DNA of 64,000 nucleotides, taken from contig JAAYDI010000032.1 of assembly GCA_012729315.1 (NCBI GenBank), positions 1 to 64,000 of the forward strand. Direction: 5' to 3'. The position numbers were made by a program, and so were the translations under genes. Shown here piece by piece: positions 6,007-28,360 of the stretch. This DNA comes from Planctomycetaceae bacterium. GTDB taxonomy: Bacteria > Planctomycetota > Planctomycetia > Pirellulales > Pirellulaceae. The notes beneath the pieces are model-generated. The model saw nothing but the letters and a program-made list of their open reading frames with translations, was not told where the DNA came from and searched no databases. The first letter of the stretch is position 1. The number at the start of each line of letters is the position of its first letter.

Positions 6007-6035
6007 GTCCACGGATCTCGCCCGGGAAGAAGATC

Positions 6036-8627
6036 ATGACGAGTGTCGGCGAAACTCTCAATCTCGCTCTGAGTCACCATCGTGACGGCAGACTTCAGGA
6101 AGCTGAAGCGATTTACCAGGAGATACTTGCCACTCGTCCCGACCATCCGGACGCGTTTCACCTTCTCGGGCTCGTTCTGTACCAGAGCGGCAGGGCGCAA
6201 GACGCCCTCGGACCCCTTCGCAAGGCAGTCCAAATCCGACCTGCCAGCGACGTCTACTTGAACAGTCTTGGGGCCGCGCTGATGGAATCGCGTCAGTGCG
6301 ACGAGGCCATCGGCTATTTCCGCCGGGCACTAAAGCTCAAGCCCGACTATGCCGATGCCTTGTCGAACCTGGGGAATGCCCTATTCGAGAAGGGCCGATA
6401 CGACGAGGCGATCACCAGCTGCCGGGAGGCGCTACGGTTCAGCCCAGGCCACTGCGGCGCCCTCTACAATCTGGCCAACGCCCTTGCAGCACAAGGCAAA
6501 CTGGATGCCGCGACAGCCCACTACGAGCAGGCGATCCGGTTGCGTCCGGCGTTCCCCAAGGCGTTCAACAACCTGGCAGGTGTCTTGCTCCTTCAGAACC
6601 GCTGGCAAGAGGCCGTCGAGTGCTACCGCCGCGCCGTAGCGCTCGATCCCGCTTTTTCCGAGGCCCACAAGAACCTCGGAAGCGTGTACAAGGACCACGG
6701 TCAGGCCGACCAGGCGATCGCCTGCTTCCGCGCAGCCATCGCGGCCAAGCCGGAGTACCCTGACGCGCTCAACCGGTTGGGAGTCACCTTGTTCGAGAAG
6801 GGCCAAATCGATGAGGCGACTGCTTGCTACCGCCGCGCCATCGCCATCCAGCCCGATTTCGTTGAAGCGCACAACAACCTCGGTGCCCTGCTCGCCGAGA
6901 CCGGCCACAACGAAGAGGCGGTGCCCTGCTACGAGCGGGCGCTGGCCCTGAAACCCCTCTGCGCCGAAACGCATTACAACCTCGGCAACGCCCTGAAAGC
7001 CCAGGGCAGACTCGCGGAAGCGGCCGCCAGCTTCCGCCGTGCGCTGGACATCCAACCCGAGCACTCGCGGTCGCTCAACAACTTGGGCAACACGCTGAAG
7101 CTCATGGGCAGATTCGTCAAGGCCGTCGAGTGTTACCGGAAAGCCGTGGAGGTCACCCCCGACGATGCGCTTCTGCTGGACAACGTTGGGGCAGCCTGCA
7201 AACAGATGGGCTTGGTGGAAGAGGCAGCGGCGGCCTATCGGCGCTCCTTGCCGTTGCGGCCGGCCAGTCCTCTTTACGATCTTCGCATCGACATTCTCTG
7301 CCCGCCGGTCTTCCCGAGCGCTGAGGCACTGGACGAGTTCCACGAGAGGCTTCAAGCCGCGATCGACCGCTACTATGAAATGGAAATCCACGCCGACCCC
7401 ACGGAGATCGCGAGGATCGGCTGCGAGCCGCCGTTCGACGTGGCTTACCACGGGCGGGATGAGCGGCGGCTCCGCGAAAGGTTCGCGGGCATCTTCCGGC
7501 ATTGTTTCCCAGACGGTCGCCCCCCGGTCGCGGATGGTTTCCCCCGGATTGCGATTGTCGTCACTCGTGACCATGAAGGGATTTTCCTGCGCGGGATGCG
7601 CGGCGTGGTGGAGCACCTTGATCCAAAGCGTTTCGACTTGTCGATCGTCTGCGCTGAGTCGGGCGAGAGCCGGCTCCGCGCCGAGATCGGCAATCCGAAC
7701 GTCAAGTACCTGCCTGTGCCGGACGATTTCAAGACGACGGTTCGGATGATCCGCGAGGCACGCTTTGATCTGTTGTACTTTTGGGAGGTCGGCAGCGACC
7801 CGTTCAACTACTTCCTACCCTTCATGTGTCTGGCTCCCGTGCAGTGCCTGGGCTGGGGCACGAACTACACCAGCGGCGTCCCGGCAATCGACTACTACAT
7901 CTCCAGCGAACTGACTGAGACACCCAGTGCCGACTCGCACTACACGGAGAAGTTGGTTCGCCTGGCGACACTGCCCACGTACCAGTACCGGGCCGAGCTG
8001 ACTCAATCGTTCAAAGGCCGCGAGGCGTTCGGTCTTGCCCAGCACCAACACGTGTATCTCTGCGCCCAGAATCTCCGCAAATTCCATCCCGATTTCGACG
8101 GCGTGTTGGGCCGCATCCTCCGCCACGACCCTGCCGGTGTCGTCGTCGTTACCAAGCCTGAGTACGAGCACATGGAAGCGAGCCTGCAGGACCGCTTCCA
8201 AGCCAGGATCCCCGACGTGTCGGATCGCATCATCTTCCTCCCTCGAATGCCTTATGCCGACTATCTCGCCCTGACCGCTGCGGCAGATGTTGTGCTCGAC
8301 CCCTTCCATTACGGCGGGGGAGTGACGACGTATGATGCCCTATCGCTGGCTAAGCCTATCGTTACGCTGCCTTCCCAGTATCAGCGTGGCCGCTACACGC
8401 TGGGATGCTACAAGAAGACTGGAGTGACGGATTGTGTCGCCTCGTCGCCGGACGACTACGTCCAGCTTGCCCACCAGTTAGGAACGGACAGGGACCGACG
8501 GGAGGCCGTGATGGAGAAGATCAGGGCTAGGAAGGACGTGCTCTTTGAGGACATCGAGGCGGTCCGCGAGTTTGAACGCTTCTTCGAGCATGCCCTGGAC
8601 GCGGCGCGGAGGTCGAGATTGGAATGA
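6036..8627 (+). CDS. TPR protein with GT41 (OGT/SPINDLY-like) glycosyltransferase domain
   Basis: 863 residues. Residues ~5-425 are TPR units. From ~505 a GT41-type catalytic region begins (RIAIVVTRDHEG; APVQCLGWGTNYTSGVPAIDYYISS; LDPFHYGGGVTTYDALS; PIVTLPSQYQRGRY). The HYGGG and LPSQYQRGR segments correspond to the UDP-sugar-binding lobe of bacterial O-GlcNAc-transferase-like enzymes, which glycosylate proteins. ATG 6036 follows a purine-rich GGGAAGAAG. It lies 29 bases after the preceding TPR-GT gene and probably shares its transcript, so the IS insertion upstream may affect it. The acceptor is unknown. Confidence 0.88.
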   Translation: MTSVGETLNLALSHHRDGRLQEAEAIYQEILATRPDHPDAFHLLGLVLYQSGRAQDALGPLRKAVQIRPASDVYLNSLGAALMESRQCDEAIGYFRRALKLKPDYADALSNLGNALFEKGRYDEAITSCREALRFSPGHCGALYNLANALAAQGKLDAATAHYEQAIRLRPAFPKAFNNLAGVLLLQNRWQEAVECYRRAVALDPAFSEAHKNLGSVYKDHGQADQAIACFRAAIAAKPEYPDALNRLGVTLFEKGQIDEATACYRRAIAIQPDFVEAHNNLGALLAETGHNEEAVPCYERALALKPLCAETHYNLGNALKAQGRLAEAAASFRRALDIQPEHSRSLNNLGNTLKLMGRFVKAVECYRKAVEVTPDDALLLDNVGAACKQMGLVEEAAAAYRRSLPLRPASPLYDLRIDILCPPVFPSAEALDEFHERLQAAIDRYYEMEIHADPTEIARIGCEPPFDVAYHGRDERRLRERFAGIFRHCFPDGRPPVADGFPRIAIVVTRDHEGIFLRGMRGVVEHLDPKRFDLSIVCAESGESRLRAEIGNPNVKYLPVPDDFKTTVRMIREARFDLLYFWEVGSDPFNYFLPFMCLAPVQCLGWGTNYTSGVPAIDYYISSELTETPSADSHYTEKLVRLATLPTYQYRAELTQSFKGREAFGLAQHQHVYLCAQNLRKFHPDFDGVLGRILRHDPAGVVVVTKPEYEHMEASLQDRFQARIPDVSDRIIFLPRMPYADYLALTAAADVVLDPFHYGGGVTTYDALSLAKPIVTLPSQYQRGRYTLGCYKKTGVTDCVASSPDDYVQLAHQLGTDRDRREAVMEKIRARKDVLFEDIEAVREFERFFEHALDAARRSRLE

Positions 8628-11174: not shown

Positions 11175-11483
11175 ATGGCGACCGATGGTCTTCGACGTCC
11201 GTTCGCGGGTGGCGTACGTGTGGTCGCGATCACTTCGAAGTGGTTCATCGTGTTGCGTGGAAACGGGGCAGCGGATATGTGGCCCAGTCCGATGAAGTTG
11301 AGCCGCAGGCTGAGTGCGGAGGCCGAATTCCGCGCGAGCAACTCGATTCGGAGATGCGCTATGCAGAGCGGTCCGAAGGTTCTCGAGTTTGTGGTGCCCA
11401 ATGGAACCTACTGCGTGGACGCGGCTGACTTGGAAGCCGCCAGAAGCGGGGTCCCAACGGGGGAGTACCACAACCCCAAGTAG
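11175..11483 (+). CDS. possible small hypothetical protein
   Basis: From ATG 11175 (or 11172) a 102-residue frame ends in VVPNGTYCVDAADLEAARSG then VPTGEYHNPK. The C-terminal half has protein-like composition and the downstream hairpin could end its transcript. No good ribosome-binding site precedes it and the N-terminal half is arginine-rich in a way seen in spurious frames. It is the nearest upstream small frame to the E2/E1 genes, so it was considered as a ubiquitin-like modifier. It has no C-terminal diglycine and no clear beta-grasp pattern. Confidence 0.3.
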   Translation: MATDGLRRPFAGGVRVVAITSKWFIVLRGNGAADMWPSPMKLSRRLSAEAEFRASNSIRRCAMQSGPKVLEFVVPNGTYCVDAADLEAARSGVPTGEYHNPK

Positions 11484-11554
11484 TGGGGCTGGGCGGGTAT
11501 TACGCCCTGTGATCGTGCAGTTGCCAAAGGCCCGCGAGGGCCAGGCAGCGCGGT

Positions 11555-11587
11555 GGTGGGCGGACGCCTCTGAGGCGTCCGCCCACC
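11555..11587. terminator. perfect 15-bp hairpin, terminator-like
   Basis: GGTGGGCGGACGCCT and its exact reverse complement are separated by a 3-base loop (CTG). The stem is G+C-rich and perfectly symmetric. The following bases (TTGTCCC) lack a T run, so it may be a palindromic repeat element or a processing/bidirectional signal rather than a classical intrinsic terminator. It lies 61 bases before the first E2-like gene. Confidence 0.5.
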
Positions 11588-11648
11588 TTGTCCCACGAAC
11601 TACCGGCGCGGCAACGCGGTGTCAATCGTGCTCATCAGGAGTCAGGTT

Positions 11649-12026
11649 ATGACATACGCCGAGGAGGTGATGATCAAAGCGAATCGAAATGGGTTGATCG
11701 GCGTGGAGGATGACGGCACGGTCGTGATGATTGAAGACGTTTCGGATCCGGATGGAAGGATGTATCGCCTGGAGTACCGCTGTACGGCGGACGCCAAACA
11801 CGCGATCGCGTTCTGCCGGCATAACCCGTGGGGCGGCGTGCAAGGCAACGAGGACTATGACGTCGGGCATGTTTCGGAGTCGGGGTTCATTTGCCTGGGG
11901 CCGGAGCATCGCGGCCAAAGAGTGATCGACTCGCCCTATCCGTTGATGTTCGCGATTCGGCGGGCTCGGTTTTGGGTGACGGCCTTTTCGGTGCTCAAGG
12001 AAACGGGTCGGTTTCCTCTGCCCTGA
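11649..12026 (+). CDS. E2-like (UBC-fold) ubiquitin-conjugating protein 1
   Basis: 125 residues. Start ATG 11649 with AGGAG seven bases upstream. The C-terminal half carries an E2-type signature: His74, then GFICLG with Cys82 in the place of the E2 catalytic cysteine, then DSPYPLMFAIRRARFW, comparable to the SP..T..T helix region after the E2 active site. By family knowledge an E2 accepts a ubiquitin-like protein from an E1 as a thioester. It is a clear paralogue of the next gene (shared DVSD/DFSD, RLEY, AIAFCR.NPWG, ICLG, RRARFW.). It heads a tight operon with the JAB-E1 gene. The E2 call is inferred from motif plus context; a structure search would settle it. Confidence 0.68.
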   Translation: MTYAEEVMIKANRNGLIGVEDDGTVVMIEDVSDPDGRMYRLEYRCTADAKHAIAFCRHNPWGGVQGNEDYDVGHVSESGFICLGPEHRGQRVIDSPYPLMFAIRRARFWVTAFSVLKETGRFPLP

Positions 12027-12036
12027 GGTGCTGACG

Positions 12037-12495
12037 ATGCGATCGATTTGGACGTGGCTCGGTCATTGGCTTTCAGGTCGCGGCGGCGAAGGCACGTCGG
12101 GCGCTGTGGTTTTCCGTGACGCGGCGGGCACAGCGCGGAGACACGAAACGCGGGCATCGCAGATCATGCGGCGCTTGAATCGCCACGCGCTGATCCTGGA
12201 GCAAGGGCGGGTGGTGTACATGGTCGAGGATTTTTCTGACAGCGACGGCAGGCTATTTCGCCTGGAGTATCAAGCGACGCCAGACGGGAGGCGGGCCATC
12301 GCGTTCTGCCGGTTCAATCCCTGGGGCGCCGGGGGTGACATGCACCTGTACGGGGACGGGCAAATTTGCCTTGGACGCCATGGAATCGGGCTGCAGGATT
12401 CGCCGTTCGATCTGGACACCGCCGTGCGGCGGGCACGTTTCTGGTGCGTGGCAGTGAGCGTGTATCACGAAACGGGAAGTTTCCCCAATGTCTAA
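12037..12495 (+). CDS. E2-like (UBC-fold) ubiquitin-conjugating protein 2
   Basis: 152 residues. Start ATG 12037, with GAGGTG six bases upstream; that site overlaps the stop codon of E2-like 1, suggesting coupled translation. It repeats the paralogue pattern with His103 and Cys111 (GDGQICLG), followed by DSPFDLDTAVRRARFW. It has an extra ~30-residue N-terminus (IWTWLGHWLSG then a Gly-rich stretch) that the first copy lacks and that could be a short membrane-associated or partner-binding helix. The next gene's ribosome-binding site lies just after its stop. Two divergent E2-like copies in tandem may serve different targets or form a heterodimer; this is inference. Confidence 0.7.
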   Translation: MRSIWTWLGHWLSGRGGEGTSGAVVFRDAAGTARRHETRASQIMRRLNRHALILEQGRVVYMVEDFSDSDGRLFRLEYQATPDGRRAIAFCRFNPWGAGGDMHLYGDGQICLGRHGIGLQDSPFDLDTAVRRARFWCVAVSVYHETGSFPNV

Positions 12496-12511
12496 CGGAG
12501 GTTTACTGGCG

Positions 12512-14221
12512 ATGTGTGAACGAATTAGGCGGAGGACGTGGAGAGATTGCCGTGACGAGCCGGCGAGTGCGTTACATGCGCCGGGCTGGCGAGCAGAGGA
12601 GCATCCGGAGTTTCCGCGTGCGCCCTTCGACATGTGTTTCACCCCCGAGGCGTTGCTGGAAACGCTGGGGACGGTCGGGGCGTTACCCCCGGAGAGCGGA
12701 GCGAAGGGCTTCGGTCCCATGGATCGACTCGGCTTCGATCGAATCGAATTCGACGTCCGAGGCTCGGCGGATGGTGGGGTGGGAGTGTACCGTCCCAACG
12801 TGGACTGGGGGAACGAACGCTGTCGCTACCATTTGAGCGTTCCGAAGGCAGTGAAAAGGGTGTGGACGGGGGACATCCATAGCCATCCCGGCTCGGAGGG
12901 AGTTCCGTCCGGGGGCGTGGGGCCGGCAATGGGTGATTTGGCATACGTGGAAGAGGTGTTCGCGATGAACGAGGCGATGCTCTATTTCCTGATCCCGATT
13001 CTGACGGCCACCGGCACGGATGAGGTGGTGATCCATCCTTGGGTGTGCCATCGCGAGTCGGGACTGATGATTGCCACCGTGCGGGTGGTGGAAAGGGAGC
13101 AGTTTCCGGTGCGCGAATTCAATCCCGTGTGGTTGGCGTCGCAGCGAAAGACCGTCATCGCGCTGGGCGACGTCGTGGAGAACGGCAGTCAGCGGGAAGA
13201 GGCTGCGGCCTCGCACGACTGGGAACACAAGGGAGTTCGCGCGGGCCTCGAGACGCGGGAGATGGAAGACGAGACGGTGGACCAGATGCATCGTCGGCGG
13301 TACAGGCTCCGATTGGATGGCATTGTATCGCCGGAGTTCTCCGGCAAATCGGCGTCGGTGGTGGGTGTCGGCGCGGGGAGCTGTGCCGTCGAAAAGCTCG
13401 CTCGGTTTTCGCTCCGACAAATCAGGCTGTGCGACTTCGATCGCGTCGAGATCGAAAACCTCTCGCGAACATGCTTTACGTATCCGGATGCATGTGCGCG
13501 AAGGTTGAAGGTTGATGCGATGCGGGACCGGCTCAGTTGGGTAAACCCCTTCGTGGATGTCGTAACCTACCCGACAAATATCACCAGCTTATCCGATGAC
13601 GCGGTGGCATCGATGTTCGAGGGCGTGGATTTGGTGGTCGCCGGGACCGACAGCTTCGCGGCGCAGGCGTTGATCAACAAACTGACGTACGATCTGTCGA
13701 TTCCGACCGTCTTTGTCGGGATTCATGCGGATGCCGCCGGAGGGCGCATCGTATGGACGGTTCCGGGGATGACTCCCTGTTATCGCTGCGTGGCACACGA
13801 TCGGTTCGAGGCGGCGAAACGCTTGGGTAAAAAGGCGCTTGATTTGCCGGCGGCGCGGGGCTCGCTCGTCGATTGTCAGTTCGTGGATCTGGTGGCGCTG
13901 AAAGTCTGCCTCGCCATTCTCGAGCGAGGTAGGGACTCGATCATGGGTCGGTTTTTCGACCACATGGGCCTGCGCAATGAGATCGTGGTCCGCTGCGACC
14001 CGACGTACGAGTGGGGGAACCGATTGTGGGATGCGATTCTTGGCGATCTGCCCACGACCCCCAAGGATTTCGCGAGGGAGATTCGCGATGCGGGATTGTT
14101 TGCGATGGATACGCTCTGGATGCGAGGCACGCGATTCCCGGATTGCCCGGTGTGTGGGCGCCGGAAGACGGGTCAGGTCGGAAGCGAAGGAAAGGGACAA
14201 GTCGACAGAAGAGGACACTAG
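12512..14221 (+). CDS. JAB/MPN protease fused to E1 (ThiF/MoeB-like) activating enzyme
   Basis: 569 residues from ATG 12512, chosen because GGAGGT (12497-12502) lies nine bases upstream; an earlier ATG at 12488 lacks one. Residues ~40-200 form a JAB metalloprotease: Glu61 (ESGAKGFGP), His123-x-His125-Pro, Ser133 and Asp142. Residues ~255-550 form an E1 adenylating domain: GVGAGS (285-290), CDFDRVEIENLSR (307-319), Lys333, AGTD (377-380), and a zinc-ribbon pair Cys423/Cys426 with Cys545/Cys548. The JAB half would trim or remove a ubiquitin-like tag; the E1 half would activate it with ATP and pass it to the E2-like proteins upstream. The transferring cysteine is not certain. Ser133 to Asp142 spacing is longer than the usual S-x2-D. 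Confidence 0.88.
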   Translation: MCERIRRRTWRDCRDEPASALHAPGWRAEEHPEFPRAPFDMCFTPEALLETLGTVGALPPESGAKGFGPMDRLGFDRIEFDVRGSADGGVGVYRPNVDWGNERCRYHLSVPKAVKRVWTGDIHSHPGSEGVPSGGVGPAMGDLAYVEEVFAMNEAMLYFLIPILTATGTDEVVIHPWVCHRESGLMIATVRVVEREQFPVREFNPVWLASQRKTVIALGDVVENGSQREEAAASHDWEHKGVRAGLETREMEDETVDQMHRRRYRLRLDGIVSPEFSGKSASVVGVGAGSCAVEKLARFSLRQIRLCDFDRVEIENLSRTCFTYPDACARRLKVDAMRDRLSWVNPFVDVVTYPTNITSLSDDAVASMFEGVDLVVAGTDSFAAQALINKLTYDLSIPTVFVGIHADAAGGRIVWTVPGMTPCYRCVAHDRFEAAKRLGKKALDLPAARGSLVDCQFVDLVALKVCLAILERGRDSIMGRFFDHMGLRNEIVVRCDPTYEWGNRLWDAILGDLPTTPKDFAREIRDAGLFAMDTLWMRGTRFPDCPVCGRRKTGQVGSEGKGQVDRRGH

Positions 14222-14367
14222 CGAGCAGGCGGTAACTCGCGCCTCCGATCCGCGGTCGCGGAAGCGCATCCGATTCTTGTCTCGCGTGCAGGTGCTGTTG
14301 CAGTGGAGGGTGGTTCGTTCGTGGTCGCCCGTGACGGCGATGAGTTGGTCCTTTGTAGGTCGGAACG

Positions 14368-15525
14368 ATGCGGCTGAATGATGTGGGAATGTTGGAGAAG
14401 AATCAGCTGGCGGCCCGCTACCGGGAGCGGGGCGTCGTATTTGTTCCAGAGGTACAACTGCCCAATTGTTTCGAGCCGGCACGTGCGGACTTCGTGTTCG
14501 TAGAATCGGGCATTCAGTGCGAGGTGTTCGTGGGGGCCGATGTCGTCTACCGCGGAGCAGACGCGACGTGGCAAGCGTGCCTGGCACACGGTCACGCACT
14601 GCGACACACTCGCCTGCTCGGCGCCGTGCAAGGCGACCTCTTCTCGGGCTGGAACTTCGCCGTGAAGATGTTGGAGCGAGCGGGCGGGGAGTTTATCGAC
14701 GAGGAGGAAACGGCCGGAGTGGATGGCGCGTCGGTTGATGGGGAGCGGGGAGAGGCCGCGACATCCGTCCCGCCGTCGCGAGGTTGGCTGATTGATCTTA
14801 CGGCGAGGGCCCCGGAGGAGGTGAGCCCTCTTGTGGGTCGAGAAAGCGAGTTGAAGCAGTTGAAGACGTGCCTTTTGCGCAAGAACAAGGGGAGCGTGGT
14901 GGTGCTGGGGATGCCGGGCGTGGGCAAGACGTCGTTCGTTTTAGAACTCGCGCGGCAAATCGCCCAAGACCAGAATGTGCCGCCCGGGATTCGCGGCACA
15001 GCGGTATACGATGTTCCGCTGGGACGTCTCCGGGACTCGGCGCGAGGAATGGCCGACATCGAGCGTGTGGGGCGCGAGATGTTGACGAAGCCGGGGCGAC
15101 CATTGTTCTTCCTCGATGAAATCCATCAACTGGTGGACCCTGTGTTCCAGCCTCTTCGCGAACTATTGAAACCGCCCTTGGCGAACGGGTCGTTGCGTGT
15201 GATCGGTGCGACAACGCCGATTGAGTGGCACCAGGTGAGGGACCAAGCGTTCAAGCGGCGATTTGTCGAGTTGGTATTGCGCGAACCGTCGCCGTCGGAC
15301 GCTGTTGAGATGGTGAAGGCCTGGGTAGCGGCTTTGGCGAGCCATCATGAACTTGACATCAGCGAGGCTGTCGTGCGCGAAGCGGTGATGCTGGCGGCGC
15401 GCTACCTGCCGTCACGGCAATTTCCCGATAAGGCGATCGATCTGCTTGACCAGGCGGCCTCTCTGCAACGAATGAGTGAAGCGGGGCATGACGCAGCGGT
15501 GGGAGACTCGGATGCCGGCACTTAA
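14368..15525 (+). CDS. Hsp100/ClpB-like D1 AAA+ subunit (split unfoldase, first half)
   Basis: 385 residues. Residues 1-135 are an unrecognised N-domain plus acidic linker, not a Clp N-domain. Residues ~150-370 align with ClpA/ClpB nucleotide-binding domain 1: VGRESEL, Walker A GMPGVGKT (181-188), Walker B LFFLDE (246-251), GATT sensor 1 (280-283), arginines 297-298, and FPDKAIDLLDQAA in the small subdomain. The protein ends where ClpB's coiled-coil M-domain would begin. The position of the D1 pore loop (KYRG in ClpB) reads SARG, without the substrate-gripping tyrosine. The gene starts 146 bases after the JAB-E1 gene and overlaps the D2 gene by 14 bases. Confidence 0.86.
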   Translation: MRLNDVGMLEKNQLAARYRERGVVFVPEVQLPNCFEPARADFVFVESGIQCEVFVGADVVYRGADATWQACLAHGHALRHTRLLGAVQGDLFSGWNFAVKMLERAGGEFIDEEETAGVDGASVDGERGEAATSVPPSRGWLIDLTARAPEEVSPLVGRESELKQLKTCLLRKNKGSVVVLGMPGVGKTSFVLELARQIAQDQNVPPGIRGTAVYDVPLGRLRDSARGMADIERVGREMLTKPGRPLFFLDEIHQLVDPVFQPLRELLKPPLANGSLRVIGATTPIEWHQVRDQAFKRRFVELVLREPSPSDAVEMVKAWVAALASHHELDISEAVVREAVMLAARYLPSRQFPDKAIDLLDQAASLQRMSEAGHDAAVGDSDAGT

Positions 15526-16654
15526 TCGACAGTTTCTCTATGAGGCGGTGGCGACGCAGGCCGGGATTCCACAGGCGCTGCTTGACACCGGGCAAGTCGC
15601 AGCGGCGGTGGAGCAATTTGTCACGCGGGCATCTGAATATCTCGTCGGCCAGGGCGACGTGCTGGAGCGACTTGGATGCGTTGTCCAGTCGCGGATGGAC
15701 GAGCGCCGCACGGGCTGGAACCAGGCGGTGGAGACAAGTCACGCCAACTGGGACACCAGGCCCTGGGCAAGCGTTCTGGCCCTGGGACCCAGTGGGACGG
15801 GGAAGACGGAAACGGCCAGATTGTTGGCCGATGGCATATTCGACGGACGGTTGATCTCGCTTCATTGCAGTGAGGTGGGGCCGGAATCGCCGCACGCCGT
15901 CGCGATGTGGACCGGGGCGCCACCCGGATATGTGGGGCATGGCACGGGCGGGGTATTGACCAACGGGCTTCGGCAGCACCGAACGGCAGTCATTCTGTTC
16001 GACGAAATCGAGAAGGCCGCTCGGGGGGTCGTCGACCACGTGCTGCTTCCGTTGCTCGGCGAGGGAACGGTGACGGACCGGAACACGGGTGAGACGCTTT
16101 GGGCGACGGATTGCGTTGTGTTCTGCACCAGCAATCTGGGAAGTGAGGCGCACGCGGGATCGACAAGTGCCGGTCCCAGTGACGGAAACGGGAGTGGTGA
16201 GGAGGAAGGGGAAGCCCGAAAGATATTATCGCGGTTTCTCCGCTCAGAGGTCGTGTCGCGCTTCCACGTCGTGTTGACTTACCGTCCGCTCGATCGCGAT
16301 GGACGGTGGCAACTGTGGTCGTTCCTGGAAGACGACCTTGTCGCGAAGGTGGGCGACAACGCGCGCGTGACGCTTGATCGTGTTGCGAGGAACGTCGTGG
16401 AACGGCGATTGGAGTGCGTGGGCGGAAACGCGCGCGGCGTGCAAGATCTGTTTCGTGATCAGGTCCTGCCGCTGCTGGCTGGGCGAGAAGTGGGAGAACA
16501 CCTGCACATTACGGCTGACGCGTCCGGTCGGTTGCAGCGCGCGGGTGACCTCCACGCGGAGCGTCAGGGAGGAAGCCCGCATGACGATACCGCGTGGGTC
16601 ATCGATTCCGGTACGTGCAGAGGAAGAAGTCGCAAAGCGGGAAGGGGTGCGTGA
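15512..16654 (+). CDS. Hsp100/ClpB-like D2 AAA+ subunit (split unfoldase, second half)
   Basis: 380 residues. Start ATG 15512, with GTGGGAG about six bases upstream, inside the end of the D1 gene, so the two are translationally coupled. The N-terminus (VATQAGIP, then LVGQ) matches the start of ClpB domain 2 just after the M-domain. It has Walker A GPSGTGKT (92-99), pore loop GAPPGYVG with aromatic Tyr140, Walker B ILFDE (161-165), TSNLGS sensor 1, SRF arginine finger (Arg250) and GNARG sensor 2 (Arg308). The loop after sensor 1, where ClpA carries its ClpP-binding IGL, is a flexible Gly/Ser/Glu stretch, so a ClpB-like role without ClpP is favoured. Confidence 0.88.
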   Translation: MPALNRQFLYEAVATQAGIPQALLDTGQVAAAVEQFVTRASEYLVGQGDVLERLGCVVQSRMDERRTGWNQAVETSHANWDTRPWASVLALGPSGTGKTETARLLADGIFDGRLISLHCSEVGPESPHAVAMWTGAPPGYVGHGTGGVLTNGLRQHRTAVILFDEIEKAARGVVDHVLLPLLGEGTVTDRNTGETLWATDCVVFCTSNLGSEAHAGSTSAGPSDGNGSGEEEGEARKILSRFLRSEVVSRFHVVLTYRPLDRDGRWQLWSFLEDDLVAKVGDNARVTLDRVARNVVERRLECVGGNARGVQDLFRDQVLPLLAGREVGEHLHITADASGRLQRAGDLHAERQGGSPHDDTAWVIDSGTCRGRSRKAGRGA

Positions 16655-16712
16655 GGTGTTTCGGCACGAACATGAAGCCGAACGGGAACGCTGGCCAGGA
16701 GAACATCGCTGA
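16581..16712 (+). CDS. small charged protein, 43 aa
   Basis: ATG 16581 has GGGAGGA about seven bases upstream. The frame encodes a highly charged peptide (AEEEVAKREGVREVFRHEHE and similar) predicted helical. It overlaps the 3' end of the D2 gene by 74 bases and stops 15 bases before the ribbon-helix-helix gene. No family is recognised. The strong ribosome-binding site and position in the operon support it; the overlap and small size argue for caution. Confidence 0.4.
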   Translation: MTIPRGSSIPVRAEEEVAKREGVREVFRHEHEAERERWPGEHR

Positions 16713-16727
16713 CCGGGAGGTGCGCGT

Positions 16728-17054
16728 ATGGGACACACGAGTAAGACAATCACGTTTCGTCTGTCAGGCTCGCAGTATGACCAACTGGCGCGGGAAGCTG
16801 AGCTACGGGGAGTGTCAACGGGTGAGCTGGCGCGCCGGCTCGCACTCGAGACGTTGAATTCAGGACCGGATGACGGAGTGACCCGGCGGTTGATGGAGCT
16901 GCAACAGCAGCTGCGGCGTTTGCATCTTGCCGTTGCGCGAGCGTGTATGGTCTTGCTTATCGATGCCGGGCATTGTGAGGAAGCGGATGCGAAGCAATGG
17001 GTTAAGGATGAGCTGCTCAAGGATGTGGACGGTCGGGACAATCGGACGGGATGA
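16728..17054 (+). CDS. ribbon-helix-helix relaxosome accessory-like protein
   Basis: 108 residues. ATG 16728 follows GGGAGGTG with ideal spacing. Residues ~5-42 (KTITFRLSGSQYDQLAREA, then STGELARRLALE) fit an Arc/MobC-type ribbon-helix-helix: a basic beta strand then two helices. The rest is helical and Leu/Arg-rich, likely a dimer or tetramer interface. It precedes the MobF relaxase gene, the usual place for a TrwA-like protein that binds oriT and represses the transfer operon. The 227 bases between the two genes carry no convincing gene and are the natural place to look for oriT. Confidence 0.7.
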   Translation: MGHTSKTITFRLSGSQYDQLAREAELRGVSTGELARRLALETLNSGPDDGVTRRLMELQQQLRRLHLAVARACMVLLIDAGHCEEADAKQWVKDELLKDVDGRDNRTG

Positions 17055-17281
17055 GAATGCCAGTACCGAGGGTTGGCGATGGACGCCTGCCACGTGGGCG
17101 TGGATCGTTGAGGGGATATTCGATGTGGTGAAGACGCGGGCCCGGAATTGGATTTCCACGAGATGAGGAAGCATGAGACCTTGGCGAATAACAACGCGGG
17201 CTTTCTGGCAAATGGTTGTGAGCATACGCCGATGAGCGACGGTGACGGGACAACGAGTTGACGGGTGGGAGTCTCGAAACG

Positions 17282-19729
17282 ATGTTATCGATCGCCGCGA
17301 TCACGCGTGGACAAGAGGATTACTACCTCAACCTGGCGGCAGAGGATTACTACGTGGGCAGTAACGAAGGCGCCGGGATATGGATGGGTGCGGGAGCCGA
17401 AGCGTTGGGTTTACAGGGGTTGGTGACGGCGGAGGCATTACGGAATGTGCTTAGTGGTTTCTCGCCCGATGGCTCGACGAAGCTGGTACAGAATGCTGGC
17501 GCTGAGAAACGCGTGCCCGGCTACGATCTGACATTCTCATTACCCAAATCGGCCTCGGTGTTGTGGGCAGTCGGTGACTCGCGCGTACGGGAGATGATTG
17601 AGCACGCCCATAGGGCGGGCGTCGAGGCGGCCGTGCGCTTCCTGGAACGAACGAGCACGTTTACGCGAGTCGGCAAGGGGGGGCGCGCTCGCGTTCATGG
17701 CAAGCTGGTGGCGGCGGCTGTCGAGCACTTTGTGAGCAGATCACTCGATCCAGCGTGGCATTGCCATCTGTTGACCTTGAACATGGTGCTCCGGCCGGAC
17801 GGTGGTGCGGGGGCCATCGTGGGGCGGGAACTGTTCGCCGCCAAGATGGCGGCTGGAGCGCTCTACCGCGCGGAGGTGGCAGCGCAGTTAGAGCGGCGTC
17901 TTGGTCTGCGGATCTTGCGCGAGGGAAGGTGTTTCGAAGTGGCTGGTGTTCCAAAAGAGTTGCGCCGGGAATTCTCGAAGCGGCGGCAGATGATCGAAGC
18001 CGCGCTGCGTGAGCGAGGCGTACACGATGCGAAGGCAGCGGCTCTTGTGGCGATCGAGACCCGACAGCGCAAAGAAGAGGTAGCTCGCGATGAATTGCTG
18101 GAGAAGTGGCAGCGCACGGCTCAGGAGCACGGGTTCGGTCAGCAACAGGTGGAAGATTTGCTGAAACAACAGGAACCGCGAAAGGATCTGTCAGCGCGAG
18201 CCGAAACGGCGTTGCAGGAAGCCGTGAGCACGATTACGGATCAGCACAGTCACTTCACGGAACGTCAGTTGATTCGACACACAGCGGAAGCAAGCCAGGA
18301 TCGGTGCGTTGGGGCAGAGGTCGTTGAACATGTCGTTCGCCAGGCCATCACTCGGTCGGAACAAATTGTCAGTCTGGGCGTCGTTCATGGCGAGGAGCAG
18401 TATACAACACGGGAGATGCTGGAGCTGGAAGAAAAACTGCTCGCGATTGTCGAATCGTCCCAGAACGACACGCGGCACATCGCGCGGTCGCGGACCGTGG
18501 CAGCCGTGCAGGCGCAGCATCCGACGCTCAGCGACGAGCAGCGCAAGGCAATCGAACACGTCGCGCAAACGCCCGGAGCGGTGAAGGTCCTGTCCGGGCT
18601 GGCGGGAACGGGGAAGACCTTCGCGCTGGCCGCGTGCCGAGAGGTGTTCGAACGCGAAAACAAGAACGTCATCGGCGCGTGTTTGTCCGGAAAGGCAGCA
18701 GTGGAACTGGAACGTTCCGCCGGAATCCCGAGTGCGACGATTCACTCCCGCATACGCGATTTGGAAGCAGGACGAATGACGTGTAACTCCGACACCGTAT
18801 TGGTGGTCGACGAGGCCGGAATGGCGGGCACTCGGCAAACGGAGCGTCTGGCCCGCGAGGTCGTCGGAAAAGGCGGGCTGCTGATTTTGGCCGGGGATGC
18901 TCGCCAGTTACAGTCGATCGAGGTCGGGGGTCATTTCCAAGGCATCGGTAAACGGATTGGACAGGCGGACCTGCATGAGATCACGCGGCAGCGCGAGGAA
19001 TGGGCGCGGGAGGCAGTCAAGGAGATCGTGCAAGGCGAGGCGGCCAAGGTGTTGGGACGCTACGCCGCGCGGGACATGCTGACCGTGGCGGAGGATAGAC
19101 GAGAAGCGCGACAGCGGCTGGTTGAGGATTGGCGGCGGCTCGGCGGTGTGGAATCGCCGGCCGAACATCTGGCGCTGACCAGTTCGCGATTGGAGGCGGC
19201 CATACTGAACGAGAAGATGCAGGAGGAAAGAATGTTGCAGGGTAAGCTCTCGTCGCGGTCAGTCGCCGTGGGTGGATTGAACTTTCACGAGGGTGATCGG
19301 GTGCTCTTCACACGCAACAACCCCTTTTATGACGTGCGGAACGGCCAGATCGGTACCGTGCTCGAGGCGGACGAAGCACGTGAGAAGATAGTCGTCGAGC
19401 TGGATGGCGGAAAACGTGTGAGCGTGTACGTCGCGGAGTATCAGCATCTGCGCATGGGGTATACGGTGACCACCCATAGTGCCCAAGGTATGACAGCGCA
19501 AAACGTCTGGGTGCTGGTGGAACCGCTGCAGGATCGGGAAATGACATACGTGCAACTGTCGCGGGCCCGGGGCAATACTCGCATCTACATGGATCAAGAT
19601 GTCGCTGGACCGGAGCTGACGGAAATCGCGCGGCAGATGAGCCGTTCCCATCAGAAACTGTTGGCGCACGACGTCGCCGCGCAAGCGGACGCGGTCCGAC
19701 CGCAAGTCCGCGGGGAACTTGAGAGGTAG
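17282..19729 (+). CDS. MobF-family (TrwC/TraA-like) conjugative relaxase-helicase
   Basis: 815 residues from ATG 17282 (MLSIAAITRGQEDYYLNL, the family's usual N-terminus). Relaxase: two tyrosine pairs (14-15 and 23-24) that would nick oriT and hold the DNA 5' end, YDLTFSLPKSASVLW, and the metal-binding HUH triad His149, His160, His162. Helicase: Walker A GLAGTGKT (439-446), VDEAGM with Asp510-Glu511, and late motifs TTHSAQGMTAQ and YVQLSRARG. By family, the protein nicks and unwinds one strand and pilots it into a recipient. The full relaxase-helicase layout appears intact. It stops six bases before the coupling-protein gene. Confidence 0.93.
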   Translation: MLSIAAITRGQEDYYLNLAAEDYYVGSNEGAGIWMGAGAEALGLQGLVTAEALRNVLSGFSPDGSTKLVQNAGAEKRVPGYDLTFSLPKSASVLWAVGDSRVREMIEHAHRAGVEAAVRFLERTSTFTRVGKGGRARVHGKLVAAAVEHFVSRSLDPAWHCHLLTLNMVLRPDGGAGAIVGRELFAAKMAAGALYRAEVAAQLERRLGLRILREGRCFEVAGVPKELRREFSKRRQMIEAALRERGVHDAKAAALVAIETRQRKEEVARDELLEKWQRTAQEHGFGQQQVEDLLKQQEPRKDLSARAETALQEAVSTITDQHSHFTERQLIRHTAEASQDRCVGAEVVEHVVRQAITRSEQIVSLGVVHGEEQYTTREMLELEEKLLAIVESSQNDTRHIARSRTVAAVQAQHPTLSDEQRKAIEHVAQTPGAVKVLSGLAGTGKTFALAACREVFERENKNVIGACLSGKAAVELERSAGIPSATIHSRIRDLEAGRMTCNSDTVLVVDEAGMAGTRQTERLAREVVGKGGLLILAGDARQLQSIEVGGHFQGIGKRIGQADLHEITRQREEWAREAVKEIVQGEAAKVLGRYAARDMLTVAEDRREARQRLVEDWRRLGGVESPAEHLALTSSRLEAAILNEKMQEERMLQGKLSSRSVAVGGLNFHEGDRVLFTRNNPFYDVRNGQIGTVLEADEAREKIVVELDGGKRVSVYVAEYQHLRMGYTVTTHSAQGMTAQNVWVLVEPLQDREMTYVQLSRARGNTRIYMDQDVAGPELTEIARQMSRSHQKLLAHDVAAQADAVRPQVRGELER

Positions 19730-19735
19730 ATACGC

Positions 19736-21784
19736 ATGCCAAGCACCGGACTCTTGCGTTTGTGCCTGTTCGCGAGCGCCTGCTCGATCGGCATGCTCGT
19801 TGCGTGCTTGCTGACAGTCGTCGGGTGGTCGGGTGGGTTCTCGGTCGTGACCGGCACGGTGTGTGCATTCGTCGCGTGGCGCCGTCAACGGGCGCACTTT
19901 CAGGTGTTGGTGGCCACGATCGATCGGGGTAGGGGGAACTTGGGTGAACGACAAGTGATGATGGCCCGCCGCGCCGCGATTGTGACGTGGTCCAGTGTGG
20001 GCGGCGCTGTCGGCGGTTACGTTGTCGGCTGCGTCCTGTTCTTTAACAGTTCGCCGATCGCGCTGATCCTACGTAGCAGTCGATCGCTCGAGCCGATGGT
20101 TGCACCTGATGTCCACTCACACGGGGGTTCGCGATATGGCCCGTGGTATGAGTACTATCCGCCTGAGAAGCCGGGTGTGCTGGGGATGCTGCGCTATGTG
20201 TCGGCGGTGGGCAGTGGGTTGGTGGTAGGTTGGCTTGTCCGCTCAAAGTACGTCCCCCCAAGAGGGCGACGAGGTATCATGCGAGGTCGGGTGTTGCTCG
20301 GTTACAGCGACGCCATTTACATCAGCCAACGTTGTCTGCCGGCAAGAGACCCCGGGCTGTCGTGGGGCGGGGTACGACTTCCGACGATCGCCGCCGCTTC
20401 GCACTTCTGTGCCGTCGGGACAACCGGCAGCGGAAAGACGTTGACCCTGCGGATGTTGATGCAGGACGCACTCACATCGATCGGCCGTGGGGCGAATTGC
20501 CGAGCACTGGTGTACGACGCCAAACAGGACATGTTGCCGTATTTACGAGGGATGGGCCTGCGCTGCGAGGTATACATCCTGAACGCGTTCGACCTGCGCG
20601 GCGCGGCGTGGGACATGGGGGCGGACTGCGACTCGCCAGCGGTAGCAATGCAGATCGCCTCCATTCTGATTCCCGAGGAGGACAACGCCAATCGCTTCTT
20701 TCCGGACGCCAGTCGGCATTTGCTGTCGGGTGCATTGACATCCCTCATCAAGAGCTGCCCCGGCAGGTGGGATTTTCGGGACGTCGTGTTGGCCATGCAG
20801 AGCGCCAACGCGATCCGTGCCCTGGTCGAACGCGTCCCCGAAACACAACACCTTGTGCAGTATTTCGCGGAACAGCGCACGTTCTCCAATATCTTGAGCA
20901 CGTTATCGACGAAAATGGCTCCTTTCGAGCCCGTCGCGGCCGCATGGAGCCGGGCTCGACGGAAAGTCAGTCTGGCTGAATGGGTCCGAGGCGAATCGGT
21001 TCTGTTGTTGGGGAACTATGAGCGGGCGCGATACGCGTTGGACGCCGTCAACCGAGTTATCTTCCGGCGTGCCAGCGAGTTGTTACTTGAGGAGAATGAA
21101 TCGAATCGCGCGAAACGAACTTGGCTGTTCCTGGACGAAACGAAGGAATGTGGCGCCTTGGATGGCCTGTCATCGCTGTTAACCAAAGGCCGCTCTCGCG
21201 GCGTGTCGGTGGTGATCGGGTTCCAGGATATCGAGGGTTTGCGGGAAGTGTACGGGGAGCGAATCGCGAATGAAATGGTCGCTCAATGCGGGAACAAGGC
21301 GATCCTGCGACTGGAAAGCCCGGAAACAGCCCGGTGGGCCAGTGCGGTGGCCGGGGAGTGCGAGCGCTACGAATACCAGACAAGCTACGCAACAAGCCCT
21401 CAAGGCAGAACGAGGACGGTGAGCGAACAGCTCGTCAAGCGAGAAGCAGTACTGCCGTCGGAATTCATGGACCTGTTGCCGACAAATCGGGCGCACGGGC
21501 TCACGGGATACTTCATGAGCCCCTATATCGGCGTTTATCGCGCGACCATTCCCGGCGAAGAGCTTGATCGACGGCTCAAACCGCGCGACGTGGCGGTGGG
21601 TGACTTCGTGCCACGCCCCCGGGAGCATGAATACCTTCACCCGTGGACGCCTGAGGATTGCCGACGGTTGGGTTTAGACCCCGACGTGGCCGTGATTGGC
21701 GGTGGTGCCGGACCCAGCCCGGAGAGCCCGCCGAAGCGTGTTCCGAAAATCGTGGGTGCGGATCGCAGAAGGAGACTTCCATGA
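19736..21784 (+). CDS. type IV coupling protein (VirD4/TraD-like)
   Basis: 682 residues. Two N-terminal membrane regions (LFASACSIGMLVACLLTVVG with the following segment; then GGAVGGYVVGCVLFF) precede a cytosolic RecA-like ATPase: Walker A GTTGSGKT (228-235), YDAKQDM, and WLFLDE Walker B with TKGRSRGVSVVIGFQDI, characteristic of TraD/TrwB. It would link the relaxase-bound strand to a secretion channel. No VirB-type channel genes are present here. Its stop overlaps the next gene's start (ATGA). Confidence 0.9.
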   Translation: MPSTGLLRLCLFASACSIGMLVACLLTVVGWSGGFSVVTGTVCAFVAWRRQRAHFQVLVATIDRGRGNLGERQVMMARRAAIVTWSSVGGAVGGYVVGCVLFFNSSPIALILRSSRSLEPMVAPDVHSHGGSRYGPWYEYYPPEKPGVLGMLRYVSAVGSGLVVGWLVRSKYVPPRGRRGIMRGRVLLGYSDAIYISQRCLPARDPGLSWGGVRLPTIAAASHFCAVGTTGSGKTLTLRMLMQDALTSIGRGANCRALVYDAKQDMLPYLRGMGLRCEVYILNAFDLRGAAWDMGADCDSPAVAMQIASILIPEEDNANRFFPDASRHLLSGALTSLIKSCPGRWDFRDVVLAMQSANAIRALVERVPETQHLVQYFAEQRTFSNILSTLSTKMAPFEPVAAAWSRARRKVSLAEWVRGESVLLLGNYERARYALDAVNRVIFRRASELLLEENESNRAKRTWLFLDETKECGALDGLSSLLTKGRSRGVSVVIGFQDIEGLREVYGERIANEMVAQCGNKAILRLESPETARWASAVAGECERYEYQTSYATSPQGRTRTVSEQLVKREAVLPSEFMDLLPTNRAHGLTGYFMSPYIGVYRATIPGEELDRRLKPRDVAVGDFVPRPREHEYLHPWTPEDCRRLGLDPDVAVIGGGAGPSPESPPKRVPKIVGADRRRRLP

Positions 21785-22530: not shown

Positions 22531-22594
22531 TGGTCGGGTGGCTTGGGTAGGGAGAGGTAACGGAGGCGAGGTGTCGATTCAAGGGGGACAATGC

Positions 22595-25012: not shown

Positions 25013-25077
25013 TCGTTGGGCCGGCCGGTGGCTGAATCGGCGGCCGGTTGCCTGGCCCAACGGTCGGGAGGGGGTTC

Positions 25078-26052: not shown

Positions 26053-26155
26053 GTGGGAACGGCACCGGTACAGTCCATCAGCCATCCGCTGAGCGGGGAC
26101 GACCGCCGTTCCTGGCAGGTTCATTACACGTAACCCGTGACTGACTGAAGACGTC

Positions 26156-26425
26156 ATGCAGGCTGACCATCACCGCGAACGGCCCAGCGGTGCGAAGGAG
26201 CAGCTCTTGAGGGTCAAGGAGGTGGCCGAACGTCTGGGATGTTCGCACAACAACGTTTACGCACTGATCAATCGCGGTTTTCTGCCCGTGGTTCGTATCG
26301 GACGTTCGAAAGGATATCGCGTCGATTCGCGGGACCTCGACGAGTTCCTTCAGCGACGGAAAGTCCAATACGAGTCAGCAGAACCTGATCGTGCGCGCCC
26401 GCAGCTCAGGCACCTGAAGTTGTGA
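26156..26425 (+). CDS. excisionase-like helix-turn-helix protein
   Basis: 89 residues. The core LLRVKEVAERLGCSHNNVYA then VVRIGRSKGYRVDSRDLDEF is the HTH_17/MerR-like winged helix of excisionase-family proteins. Such small proteins often steer a tyrosine integrase towards excision or regulate the element. It is the last plus-strand gene of the block and faces the integrase gene, matching an xis-int arrangement. An alternative is a transcription regulator. Confidence 0.8.
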   Translation: MQADHHRERPSGAKEQLLRVKEVAERLGCSHNNVYALINRGFLPVVRIGRSKGYRVDSRDLDEFLQRRKVQYESAEPDRARPQLRHLKL

Positions 26426-26470
26426 TGGTTCTGCACATCCGCGTCCAGCATATCGACCGACATCCCCAGT

Positions 26471-26527: not shown

Positions 26528-26544
26528 ACTTTCTCTCTGGGCCA

Positions 26545-27086: not shown

Positions 27087-28256
27087 TTAGCCGACTGCCC
27101 GCTGCGCCTGCTCGAGCAGGTAGACGGGGCTGTGCGACAGGTGCTGGTAGACCTTGGCCAGCGTGGAGGGATCGCGATGCCCCATCAGCACGGCGACCGT
27201 GAGCGAGTCCAGCCCGCGTTCCAGGGCGTGGGTTGCCCATGAGTGCCGCAGCGCGTAGAGGGAGTACTTCTGGGCCAGGCTGCATGCGAGACGGGTCGCG
27301 AGCTTCCGGCGTGCCTCGCCGAATAGCTCGGACTTCGACTTGGCGACCGGCACTCCGGCGGCGAGGCGCGTTGGAGCGAGACGGCGTGCCAATTCTCGAA
27401 CGGCCGACTCCTTCACCTCGATGCCACGTTTCTGCATCTCCTGGCGCCCCATCTTGATCTGCAAGCGAATGAACGCGCAATTGACCGCGTCCGTGGTCCA
27501 GGCTTGGCCGTTGGAGTTGCGAAACAATTTGCCTTGTGCGAACCGCGCCATGCGGCGACGGGTGATGTCGAGCGCCGAGCCGGTAAGATAGACAATTCGC
27601 GGAATGCCGCCCTTGGACTCGGTCTGGGGAAAGACCCATCGACTGTGGGTGAGGTCCACGTGTCGTGCCTCGACCCCCAGTGACTCTTGAGGCCGACACC
27701 CGGTTTCCCAGGTCACGAGCAAGAGATCGCGGAAGTCTTGGTCCGGAATAAGGGTCAGCATTGTCTCGAACTCCGCCGGGGAGATGACCTGTTCGCGTTT
27801 GCCGCCCGCGGGTTGTTCGAGGTGGGCAATCGGGTTGTGATCGACGTACCCCTGCTGGAATGCCCACTGCAGGGTTCGCTTGATGGCCCGGCAGTGGTTG
27901 CGTCGAGACCCGCTGGACAAACCGTCCAGGCTATTGAGCCACTCCTGGACGTGGAACGGGCGGAGCTGACTGGCATTTAGATGGGGGTGGATCTCGGCGA
28001 ACCGCTGCAGGCGATAGCGATACCATTCGTACGTATGGGGGGAACGGTGCTTTTGGCTCCACTCGAGAAAGGCGTCAATGATGGCGACCAGGGAGTCCCC
28101 TCGAACAACGCGTTTTTCCTTCGGCTGGGTCATGAGCCGGTGAAACTGGTCGAACGCAGCGGCTTTATCGGGGCCGAGGTTGTGGCGGACGCCGTGGAGA
28201 GTAACGCACCAGCAGCGGCGGGCCTGCCAGTACCAGGGTTTGGGATGTCGGGGCAT
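27087..28256 (-). CDS. tyrosine-recombinase integrase
   Basis: 389 residues from ATG 28256, with GGAGG seven bases upstream. An N-terminal SAM-like core-binding domain (~50-140; SPHTYEWYRYRLQRFAEIHP) precedes the catalytic domain. Catalytic residues: Arg188 (TGCRPQE), Arg337 (LYALRHSWATH, where the usual first His of H-x-x-R is Tyr334), His360 (MGHRD) and nucleophile Tyr370 (AKVYQHL). It lies about 170 bases from the 3' end of tRNA-Arg, the standard position for an element integrated into a tRNA gene, and would catalyse integration and excision. Confidence 0.93.
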   Translation of the reverse strand: MPRHPKPWYWQARRCWCVTLHGVRHNLGPDKAAAFDQFHRLMTQPKEKRVVRGDSLVAIIDAFLEWSQKHRSPHTYEWYRYRLQRFAEIHPHLNASQLRPFHVQEWLNSLDGLSSGSRRNHCRAIKRTLQWAFQQGYVDHNPIAHLEQPAGGKREQVISPAEFETMLTLIPDQDFRDLLLVTWETGCRPQESLGVEARHVDLTHSRWVFPQTESKGGIPRIVYLTGSALDITRRRMARFAQGKLFRNSNGQAWTTDAVNCAFIRLQIKMGRQEMQKRGIEVKESAVRELARRLAPTRLAAGVPVAKSKSELFGEARRKLATRLACSLAQKYSLYALRHSWATHALERGLDSLTVAVLMGHRDPSTLAKVYQHLSHSPVYLLEQAQRAVG

Positions 28257-28287
28257 GAAAAAACCTCCAAGCCTGAACCAAGGAAAC

Positions 28288-28343
28288 CACCCTTGCAAGC
28301 CTGAAGGTCATTGCGGCGTCCCGGGCGGTGGCGGCCGTCCGAG
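28288..28343 (+). repeat. diverged direct repeat flanking the integrase module, copy 2
   Basis: Contains CACCCTTGCAAG (28288-28299) and CGGTGGCGGCCGTCCGAG (28326-28343), matching copy 1 at 26471-26526 with identical spacing. It lies just upstream of the integrase start and can also form a 7-bp hairpin with one G-T pair. Confidence 0.75.
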
Positions 28344-28360
28344 AGCGTTTCACATTATTA

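Follow-up and report, generated by a model that had tools for sequence, protein, structure and literature searches.

A conserved short-peptide gene beside bacterial JAB-E1, E2-like and Hsp100-type genes: a possible peptide-tagging and unfolding module

Several bacterial gene sets assemble the enzymes of ubiquitin-like conjugation. Bil/Bub (BilABCD) and the type II cyclic oligonucleotide-based antiphage signalling systems (CBASS) bring together an E1, an E2 and a JAB peptidase, and the Bil set includes a β-grasp protein of the BilA type. A ThiF-family E1 activates the C-terminal glycine of its substrate, usually a β-grasp protein, and to our knowledge E1-E2 cascades are thought to be bound to this fold. 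What would such a cascade act on where no β-grasp protein lies next to it? The question is raised by a gene set in a 64,000-nucleotide (nt) stretch of DNA from a Planctomycetaceae bacterium (Pirellulaceae; positions 1-64,000 of contig JAAYDI010000032.1, assembly GCA_012729315.1), called the window in what follows. Five closely spaced genes, all on the + strand, encode two E2-like proteins (E2a and E2b), a JAB domain fused to an E1 (JAB-E1) and the two halves of an Hsp100-type AAA+ unfoldase (AAA1 and AAA2), with overlapping reading frames at E2b/JAB-E1 and at AAA1/AAA2 (50 nt; Table 1). An earlier note on this DNA had marked the interval 11649-16654 as a ubiquitin-like conjugation set of five tightly packed, co-directional genes joined to a split Clp unfoldase. 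The genes are all there, but the interval is incomplete: a conserved 40-codon peptide gene upstream (11361-11483) had been missed, and it is this short peptide, instead of an unseen ubiquitin-like (Ubl) protein, that is probably the modifier.

Three papers describe related sets, and what is said of them here refers to the available portions of their text. In the type 6e operons of Iyer et al. 2006 (PMC1779556) a JAB domain likewise stands at the N-terminus of the E1, a small E2/RWD-like protein is encoded, and the likely modifier is made of repeated units, namely multi-Ubl proteins with one to three β-grasp domains of 70-75 amino acids (aa). Here, in contrast, the repeats are 11-19 aa long, the E2s keep the H and C whereas the 6e E2/RWD-like proteins are without the cysteine, and an Hsp100 AAA+ is added; neither β-grasp repeats of the 6e type nor a Pfam match to a Ubl family was met among the operon proteins scanned. 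Where the available text of that paper mentions Clp, ClpS is meant, and the term AAA is absent from it. Kaur et al. 2020 (PMC7159879) found Ubl ligases, JAB, FtsH, rare ClpN-domain fusions and processed peptides in one neighbourhood. These FtsH-ternary conflict systems resemble the present locus in having Ubl-type ligases, JAB, an AAA+ chaperone and a small processed peptide, and so give a precedent for Ubl ligases that go together with an AAA+ chaperone. Their own features are a β-grasp Ubl fused to E2, a RING E3, MoxR-vWA, FtsH, radical SAM and a zincin, none of which was found among the window proteins scanned (11.6-22.5 kb). Related TERNS3 sets (PMC8195603) have an E1 component together with Ubl and E2 components that are fused to adaptor domains. 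A short repeat peptide with a JAB-E1-E2 set was not found in the available text of these three papers, and a literature search by title and abstract opening, whose coverage leaves out most subscription papers and preprints, found no description of this combination; a search with motif strings, judged from the best 5 of 20,987 matches, does not settle its absence. The window appears to differ from Bil/Bub in that no β-grasp protein of the BilA type is seen beside the E2 (five + strand open reading frames, 10.68-11.65 kb, where a remote Ubl may still occur), the peptide gene and the unfoldase being there instead, and no CD-NTase as in type II CBASS is among the nine proteins scanned between 11.6 and 22.5 kb.

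The peptide gene carries the argument. In the window its 40-codon frame contains VVPNGTYCVDAADLEAARSGVPTGEYHNPK; the presumed start codon is an ATG with a GGAG 7 nt to its 5' side, and the same frame stays open upstream to a TTG at 11151. At a second locus, L017, a 144-codon gene upstream of E2 holds three exact 19-aa repeats, VDAEALRRARQGTPTGEYH. Used as a query against the window and L017 genomes, this repeat matches 11394-11471 of the window at E 4.3e-6 (69% over 26 aa), and the second-best site in the window genome has an E value of 0.19. Two further loci, L034 and L035, have near JAB-E1 an E2-like gene and a small gene with the repeats VVPPGTFHGED or DEIPPGTFH, the unit of L034 being 11 aa long. 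Fused JAB-E1 genes are found at eight loci (the window, L017, L034, L035, L047, L048, L049 and L050), of which all but the window and L017 are counted as six loci from the window's class. By eye a peptide gene, mostly repeated, lies near E2 in all eight, and the strict pattern P-x-G-x-[FYW]-H is present in seven. The expectation set before new loci were scanned was an hPxG[TE][FY]H peptide near JAB-E1; the scan itself used the wider P.G.[FYW]H, which admits W and any residue ahead of the aromatic, and found it no more than 700 nt upstream of E2 in three of the four newly scanned fused loci (L047, L048 and L050, the first two being near-copies inside one genome). In L049, the remaining one, the variant P-x-G-G-F-R occurs four times. 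Elsewhere the pattern matched 9 times in 298 strand-kb, or 0.02 per 700 nt of one strand, a count that includes four true L034 copies more than 700 nt away and one match inside the L034 E2-like gene. The glycine of P-x-G is the sole glycine common to the peptides; an aromatic follows one residue on, then usually His or Arg, and L017, L047 and L048 have longer C-terminal tails.

Is this small peptide made at all? At L017 the three copies, 57 nt long, are 5, 7 and 7 nt apart in pairwise comparison and encode identical amino acids, whereas of single changes placed at random in the unit some 26% would be silent. One synonymous-only repeat pair was found in L034, with 8 nt changed, and one in each of L049 and L035, with 7 nt changed, and the pairs in which the peptide differs (two in L034, two in L049) have 2-3 and 7-8 changes in altered codons. 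As the DNA of the copies diverges while the peptide stays constant, the sequences indicate that the peptide is translated and under selection. The spacer between the peptide gene and E2a, with its inverted repeat, folds better than shuffled sequences (z -4.5), and the same holds for L017 (-2.9), L047 (-3.3), L049 (-4.4) and L050 (-2.2); these five of the eight fused loci were folded, all five favourably, with L034 and L048 left out and the L035 spacer only ~28 nt long. We read the whole as a peptide-tagging and unfolding module, in which the short peptide would be conjugated by E1 and E2, trimmed by JAB and read by the Hsp100, a tentative reading for which the balance falls just short of even.

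Peptide genes also occur away from JAB-E1. The genome of L034 (G1071) has a second one, with three copies, 172-244 nt (depending on the start) from a divergent AAA+ gene of the same build as the other one-ring AAA+ described below; there the E1 is ~19 kb off and the nearest E2-like gene 7.6 kb. The genome of L035 (G295) has two more without adjoining partners, one of them beside an E2 remnant. In G295 long proteins precede the peptide genes (L035 9512-13489, with WD40 repeats; L056 1762-5850, alike by eye), and the remnant of an E2-like gene is present in L056. The L034 JAB-E1 protein (6743-8479) itself begins QLPQGRFYNPE, which looks like the peptide motif. M48 peptidase genes lie near two of the loci (L017 5324-7750; L034 9262-12507, where there is also an M90), and these peptidases recall the zincin of peptide-processing systems.

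How far is the gene set conserved? A scan of genome_contigs with the E2 pair (84,980 species genomes, 51 stretches) returned one locus, L017, from a metagenome-assembled, distant bacterium. The order E2-E2-JAB-E1-AAA is the same in both, with the peptide gene ahead; the first L017 E2 is 58% identical to E2a, the second 46% to E2a and 42% to E2b, and the JAB and E1 parts are 52% and 47% identical to those of the window fusion, although the L017 JAB-E1 frame is interrupted, probably by assembly errors. The 16S genes of G022 and G450 (window's family and order) have the exact targets of PLA46 and PLA886, which we take to be planctomycete probes, and the L017 genome has neither. This suggests, and does not prove, that the module moved between distant lineages; in the window's own genome no 16S was found. 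Within the phylum, a two-JAB profile over 392 genomes found, besides the window's own, two JAB-E1 fusions, L034 and L035. Among 397 class genomes, a profile of their E2-like proteins matched 7, at 9 sites in all, and of the seven new regions fetched (L046-L052) four have a fused JAB-E1. The neighbourhood is conserved, as the earlier note's reading would have it, both in the gene order of L017 and in the class loci. In L051 (5742-12014) and L052 (1856-7205) related E2, JAB and E1 are separate genes, accompanied by a protein of 216 or 221 aa; by eye both have an ATPase like HerA or a coupling protein, in L051 there is a further E2-like protein, whose Cys is replaced by Ser, and LPAGFH and VPTGFR in the 216/221-aa proteins resemble the peptide motif.

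E2 searches of 294 phylum, 396 order and 290 L017-relative genomes matched the query's own genome only. With JAB-E1 as query 58 of 60 relatives matched, in or around the E1 part only, one of these matches (G022, 237026-237406) belonging to the fused locus L050. In plasmids, none of five tblastn queries had a match, these being E2b, the JAB region and AAA1 N-domain, the L017 E2a and the L034 E2-like protein; JAB-E1 matched 20 records, all in the E1 part only, the L034 JAB-E1 matched 129, of which the best 30 are in the E1 part only, and AAA1 and AAA2 matched ~2,200 and ~2,100 records, the matches listed including Clp/TssH names. No match to E2a was found in phages by tblastn, and scans of viral_contigs gave no relative.

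E2a and E2b (53% identity over the aligned part) have no credible Pfam family; the E2-type centre that the earlier note had seen, H..G.ICLG, is kept in both, its H..G..C being the same in all four copies from the window and L017, and in an alignment of 13 E2-like proteins the His is found in 13 and the Cys in 12, the exception being L051b with Ser. The AlphaFold2 model of E2a (four-row alignment, pLDDT 77.7) has a UBC-like topology of helix, four strands and helix. Its best Foldseek match is the Vps23 UEV domain at E 0.2 (weak alone); in structural comparison the top match is the CBASS CdnG-associated bacterial E2 8hsb_B (Z 7.2, root-mean-square deviation 3.9, 111 aligned), and the best 50 matches are by title all of UBC, UEV, RWD or FANCL type. 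As the best Z is under 8, a range that by the tool's own warning may reflect merely a common arrangement, the predicted UBC fold of E2a is supported and not proven. A Prok-E2_B search of the window genome gave no match, but with its control silent too it is uninformative. In profile comparison L051/L052 E2s match the window E2 group at 96% probability (E 3.6e-9) and the class E2 group at 98.8% (6e-17).

In JAB-E1 the E1 with zinc ribbon is evident from Pfam ThiF (E 2.2e-29), GVGAGS, CYRC and CPVC. Pfam gave no JAB match in the window protein; PADLOC gave E1-E2 models down to 1e-15 and a weak JAB at E 0.0025. The window fusion aligns with L034 over 551 columns (24%, E 4.8e-24) and with L035 over 418 (23%, 8.9e-20), homologues in which Pfam finds Prok-JAB at 1e-9 and 1.6e-7, and the JAMM residues E..HxH..S..D are kept, although in the window and L017 the S and the D are separated by an insertion. 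The fused JAB of the earlier note is upheld on these residues and homologues as a putative deconjugase. In an E1 tree the window and L017 pair (93/93), the remaining six fused loci group (100/99) and L051/L052 join the latter (96/94); in a label test for one origin 47 of 500 shuffles were as low, with seven ThiF rows under half filled.

Could the same genes make a ribosomally synthesised and post-translationally modified peptide (RiPP)? The repeat-core precursor would then be adenylated or modified by the E1-like protein and its cores excised by JAB, the AAA+ serving export or self-protection, and there would be no protein target. RiPP operons do have multi-copy short cores and a hairpin 3' of the precursor gene, as seen here, and the E1-like MccB of microcin C is among the Protein Data Bank (PDB) matches of the window E1 (E 0.0022-0.0044). 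The best PDB matches, however, are MoeB and UBA5 (4e-14), with Citrobacter BubCD at 8e-10, and we know of no RiPP pathway that has catalytic-type E2s or an unfoldase among its parts, whereas here one or two E2s with conserved H..C stand with one. We hold this alternative unlikely, even though peptide-processing systems occur beside other Ubl-ligase systems (PMC7159879). Just as improbable is a modifier of the β-grasp type (ThiS/MoaD-like) encoded elsewhere, with the peptide as a substrate, degron or regulator of the E2 or the AAA+. It would give the ThiF-family E1 the kind of substrate that such E1s otherwise activate; the host genome has two further E1 matches, and in G1071 a peptide gene lies next to an AAA+ gene far from E1, as that of a substrate or adaptor might. 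Tandem copies and a hairpin, on the other hand, suit an abundant modifier better than a regulator. Pfam showed no Ubl family among the scanned operon proteins, nor in the five + strand reading frames of 10.68-11.65 kb, a negative that covers those proteins, a dedicated Ubl elsewhere in the genome not having been searched for; in the available text on 6d/6e E1-JAB operons these encode their own (PMC1779556).

It is in the AAA+ part that the earlier note has to be revised. Both Hsp100 halves are present, AAA1 matching the ClpV/ClpA first nucleotide-binding domain (NBD1; TIGR03345, 4e-47) and AAA2 the ClpV NBD2 (3.5e-36), but the label ClpB-like given them there needs correction: the best NCBIfam model is ClpV, there is no middle domain between the halves and there is no Clp_N match. 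Together they amount to a two-ring Hsp100 cut between its rings, and the two-gene form may be a true split or a frameshift. They share with ClpV, ClpA and ClpB the Walker motifs of both domains and the GYVG pore loop of NBD2, and differ in the separate genes, an N-domain of their own and the lack of a middle domain and ClpP loop. Compared with E. coli ClpA/ClpB, the NBD1 of AAA1 has both Walker motifs (A and B) and the arginine finger intact, whereas pore-loop KYRG has become SARG and the tyrosine is lost; the ClpP-docking IGL/IGF is absent from AAA2 and L017 and present (IGL) in E. coli ClpA. An NBD2-type AAA+ follows JAB-E1 in five of the eight fused loci (the window, L017, L047, L048 and L049). 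L017, L047, L049 and L055 have an N-terminal domain with a single NBD2-type ring; that of L017 is one 491-aa protein in which an AAA1-like N-domain (34%) is joined to the ring (31%) with no NBD1. As the AAA+ proteins examined elsewhere have one ring, the split two-ring form appears so far peculiar to the window. The N-domains of both AAA+ groups agree in size and position; for that of AAA1 the predicted structure (pLDDT 46) has no usable structural match, and a nuclease-like nature of this domain is conjectural. The earlier note's full system, a tag-and-unfold machine with an unseen ubiquitin-like tag and the split Clp as its defining feature, is for this reason very unlikely in that form, although its gene content is confirmed and the AAA+ recurs. 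What stands of that interpretation, which is partly supported, is the conserved set and the Hsp100 link in five of eight loci; the observation itself is confirmed. Of the two findings by which the earlier note would have been refuted, neither turned up: the neighbourhood is conserved, and E2a is predicted to have a UBC-like topology.

Past AAA2 the window continues into mobilisation genes (Table 1). The stretch 11361-28496 also holds a ribonucleotide reductase with a TSCPD domain and a weak RepB-primase match, and GC skew is distinctly positive from ~10 to 27 kb. The module is probably part of a mobilizable integrated element and stands ahead of its mobilisation genes; within the window, direct repeats of the tRNA end are all ≤12 nt and the left end was not found. 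That unrelated genes were assembled by chance as cargo of this element, whose mobilisation genes and integrase the window copy adjoins, is highly improbable, because the set recurs in class relatives and L017 keeps the gene order without these neighbours, its 20-kb locus giving no credible match to the window's ribbon-helix-helix protein, relaxase or coupling protein. Just beyond the tRNA (28958-31870, - strand) lies a protein of 971 aa that combines a TOTE-type primase, a ResIII helicase and a DUF559 domain, and at 3421-8627 a tandem pair of long TPR-repeat proteins, by eye glycosyltransferase-like.

Table 1. Features of the gene set and its surroundings in the window
Feature	Position	Strand	Remarks
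Small peptide ('tag') gene	11361..11483	+	40 aa / 40 codons, MQSGPKVLEFVVPNGTYCVDAADLEAARSGVPTGEYHNPK; P-x-G-x-[FY]-[HC] twice
Perfect 16-bp inverted repeat	11555..11587		in the spacer 3' of the peptide gene, ahead of E2a; hairpin lacking a T run
E2a, UBC-type	11649..12026	+	125 aa; H74..G79-x2-C82
E2b, E2a paralogue with N-terminal extension	12028..12495	+	155 aa; same H..G..C
JAB (JAMM protease) fused to E1 (ThiF)	12488..14221	+	CYRC and CPVC zinc-ribbon cysteines
AAA1	14368..15525	+	~130-aa N-terminal domain and Hsp100 NBD1
AAA2	15476..16654	+	Hsp100 NBD2; Walker A/B, GYVG pore loop
NikA-like ribbon-helix-helix relaxosome protein	16728..17054	+	Pfam NikA-like 1.5e-6; 73 nt past AAA2
MobF/TrwC relaxase-helicase	17258..19729	+	TrwC 2.9e-77
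TraD/TrwB-type coupling protein	19736..21784	+	TrwB_AAD_bind 3.8e-54
Tyrosine integrase	27087..28298	-	adjoins tRNA-Arg
tRNA-Arg	28422-28496	-	integrase neighbour

How would a peptide-tagging and unfolding module work? From the company these genes keep we infer a joint function, in which the small gene would encode a short peptide that bears the motif P-x-G-[T/E/G]-[F/Y/W]-[H/R] and is often made as a precursor of head-to-tail repeats. Since ThiF-family E1s activate a C-terminal glycine and that of P-x-G is the sole shared one, JAB would most likely cut after it, which would separate the repeats and expose the glycine at the C-terminus. The fused E1 would adenylate this glycine, and the E2 proteins (H...C) would hold the peptide as a thioester and pass it to target proteins, from which JAB may also remove it. 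The dedicated Hsp100-type AAA+, in the window split and with an extra NBD1, would recognise the tag and pull the target apart, probably for remodelling rather than degradation as there is no ClpP-docking loop. The RNA hairpin behind the peptide gene might ensure that the peptide stays more abundant than the enzymes, and as the window copy heads the mobilisation genes of a probable integrated element, the targets may be transfer or host-defence proteins. In its more specific form, a linear peptide of ~10-35 residues ending in P-x-Gly after cleavage from a tandem-repeat precursor and serving as a non-β-grasp modifier decoded by a dedicated unfoldase, the proposal is possible, if somewhat less likely than not. 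It resembles Pup-Mpa, where a small, probably unstructured tag is likewise read by an AAA+ ring, with the difference that Pup is attached by PafA, not by E1-E2, and that no JAB takes part.

A number of observations weigh against such a module. The window-type and class-relative peptides have only about six residues in common, and the L034 peptide as a query misses that of the window and finds that of G450 only at E 0.15-0.2. Peptide C-termini differ (..FH, ..FR, ..FHAG, ..FHVL, ..YHNPK) and are without GG. The narrower motif, with T/E and F/Y only, matches one of the four new fused loci (L050), and at L034 a distance of 0.9 kb separates the peptide gene from E2, and JAB-E1 is encoded on the opposite strand. 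In the E1, no non-zinc Cys common to the window and L017 is seen by eye at the usual loop of the catalytic cysteine. The window and class E2 groups compare at a probability of 0.7%, which is not significant, and connect solely via L051/L052, loci with separate JAB and E1 genes and no match to the peptide motif; the 15-kb stretch of L046 has an E2-like gene and no JAB-E1. Three of the eight fused loci have no AAA+ beside JAB-E1, and between the AAA+ N-domains of the window and L017 and those of L047, L049 and L055 hhalign gives a probability of 0.43% only.

If the peptide-tagging module is real, conjugation and ATP-driven unfolding would be joined in one bacterial gene set, and its peptide tag would be unlike any known ubiquitin-type tag. 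An E1-E2 cascade working on a ten-residue peptide would set the minimal requirement for ubiquitin-like tagging far lower, and it would offer a compact, genetically encoded bacterial tagging tool with its own eraser and unfoldase. It would then be a third protein-tagging chemistry beside ubiquitin-like proteins and Pup.

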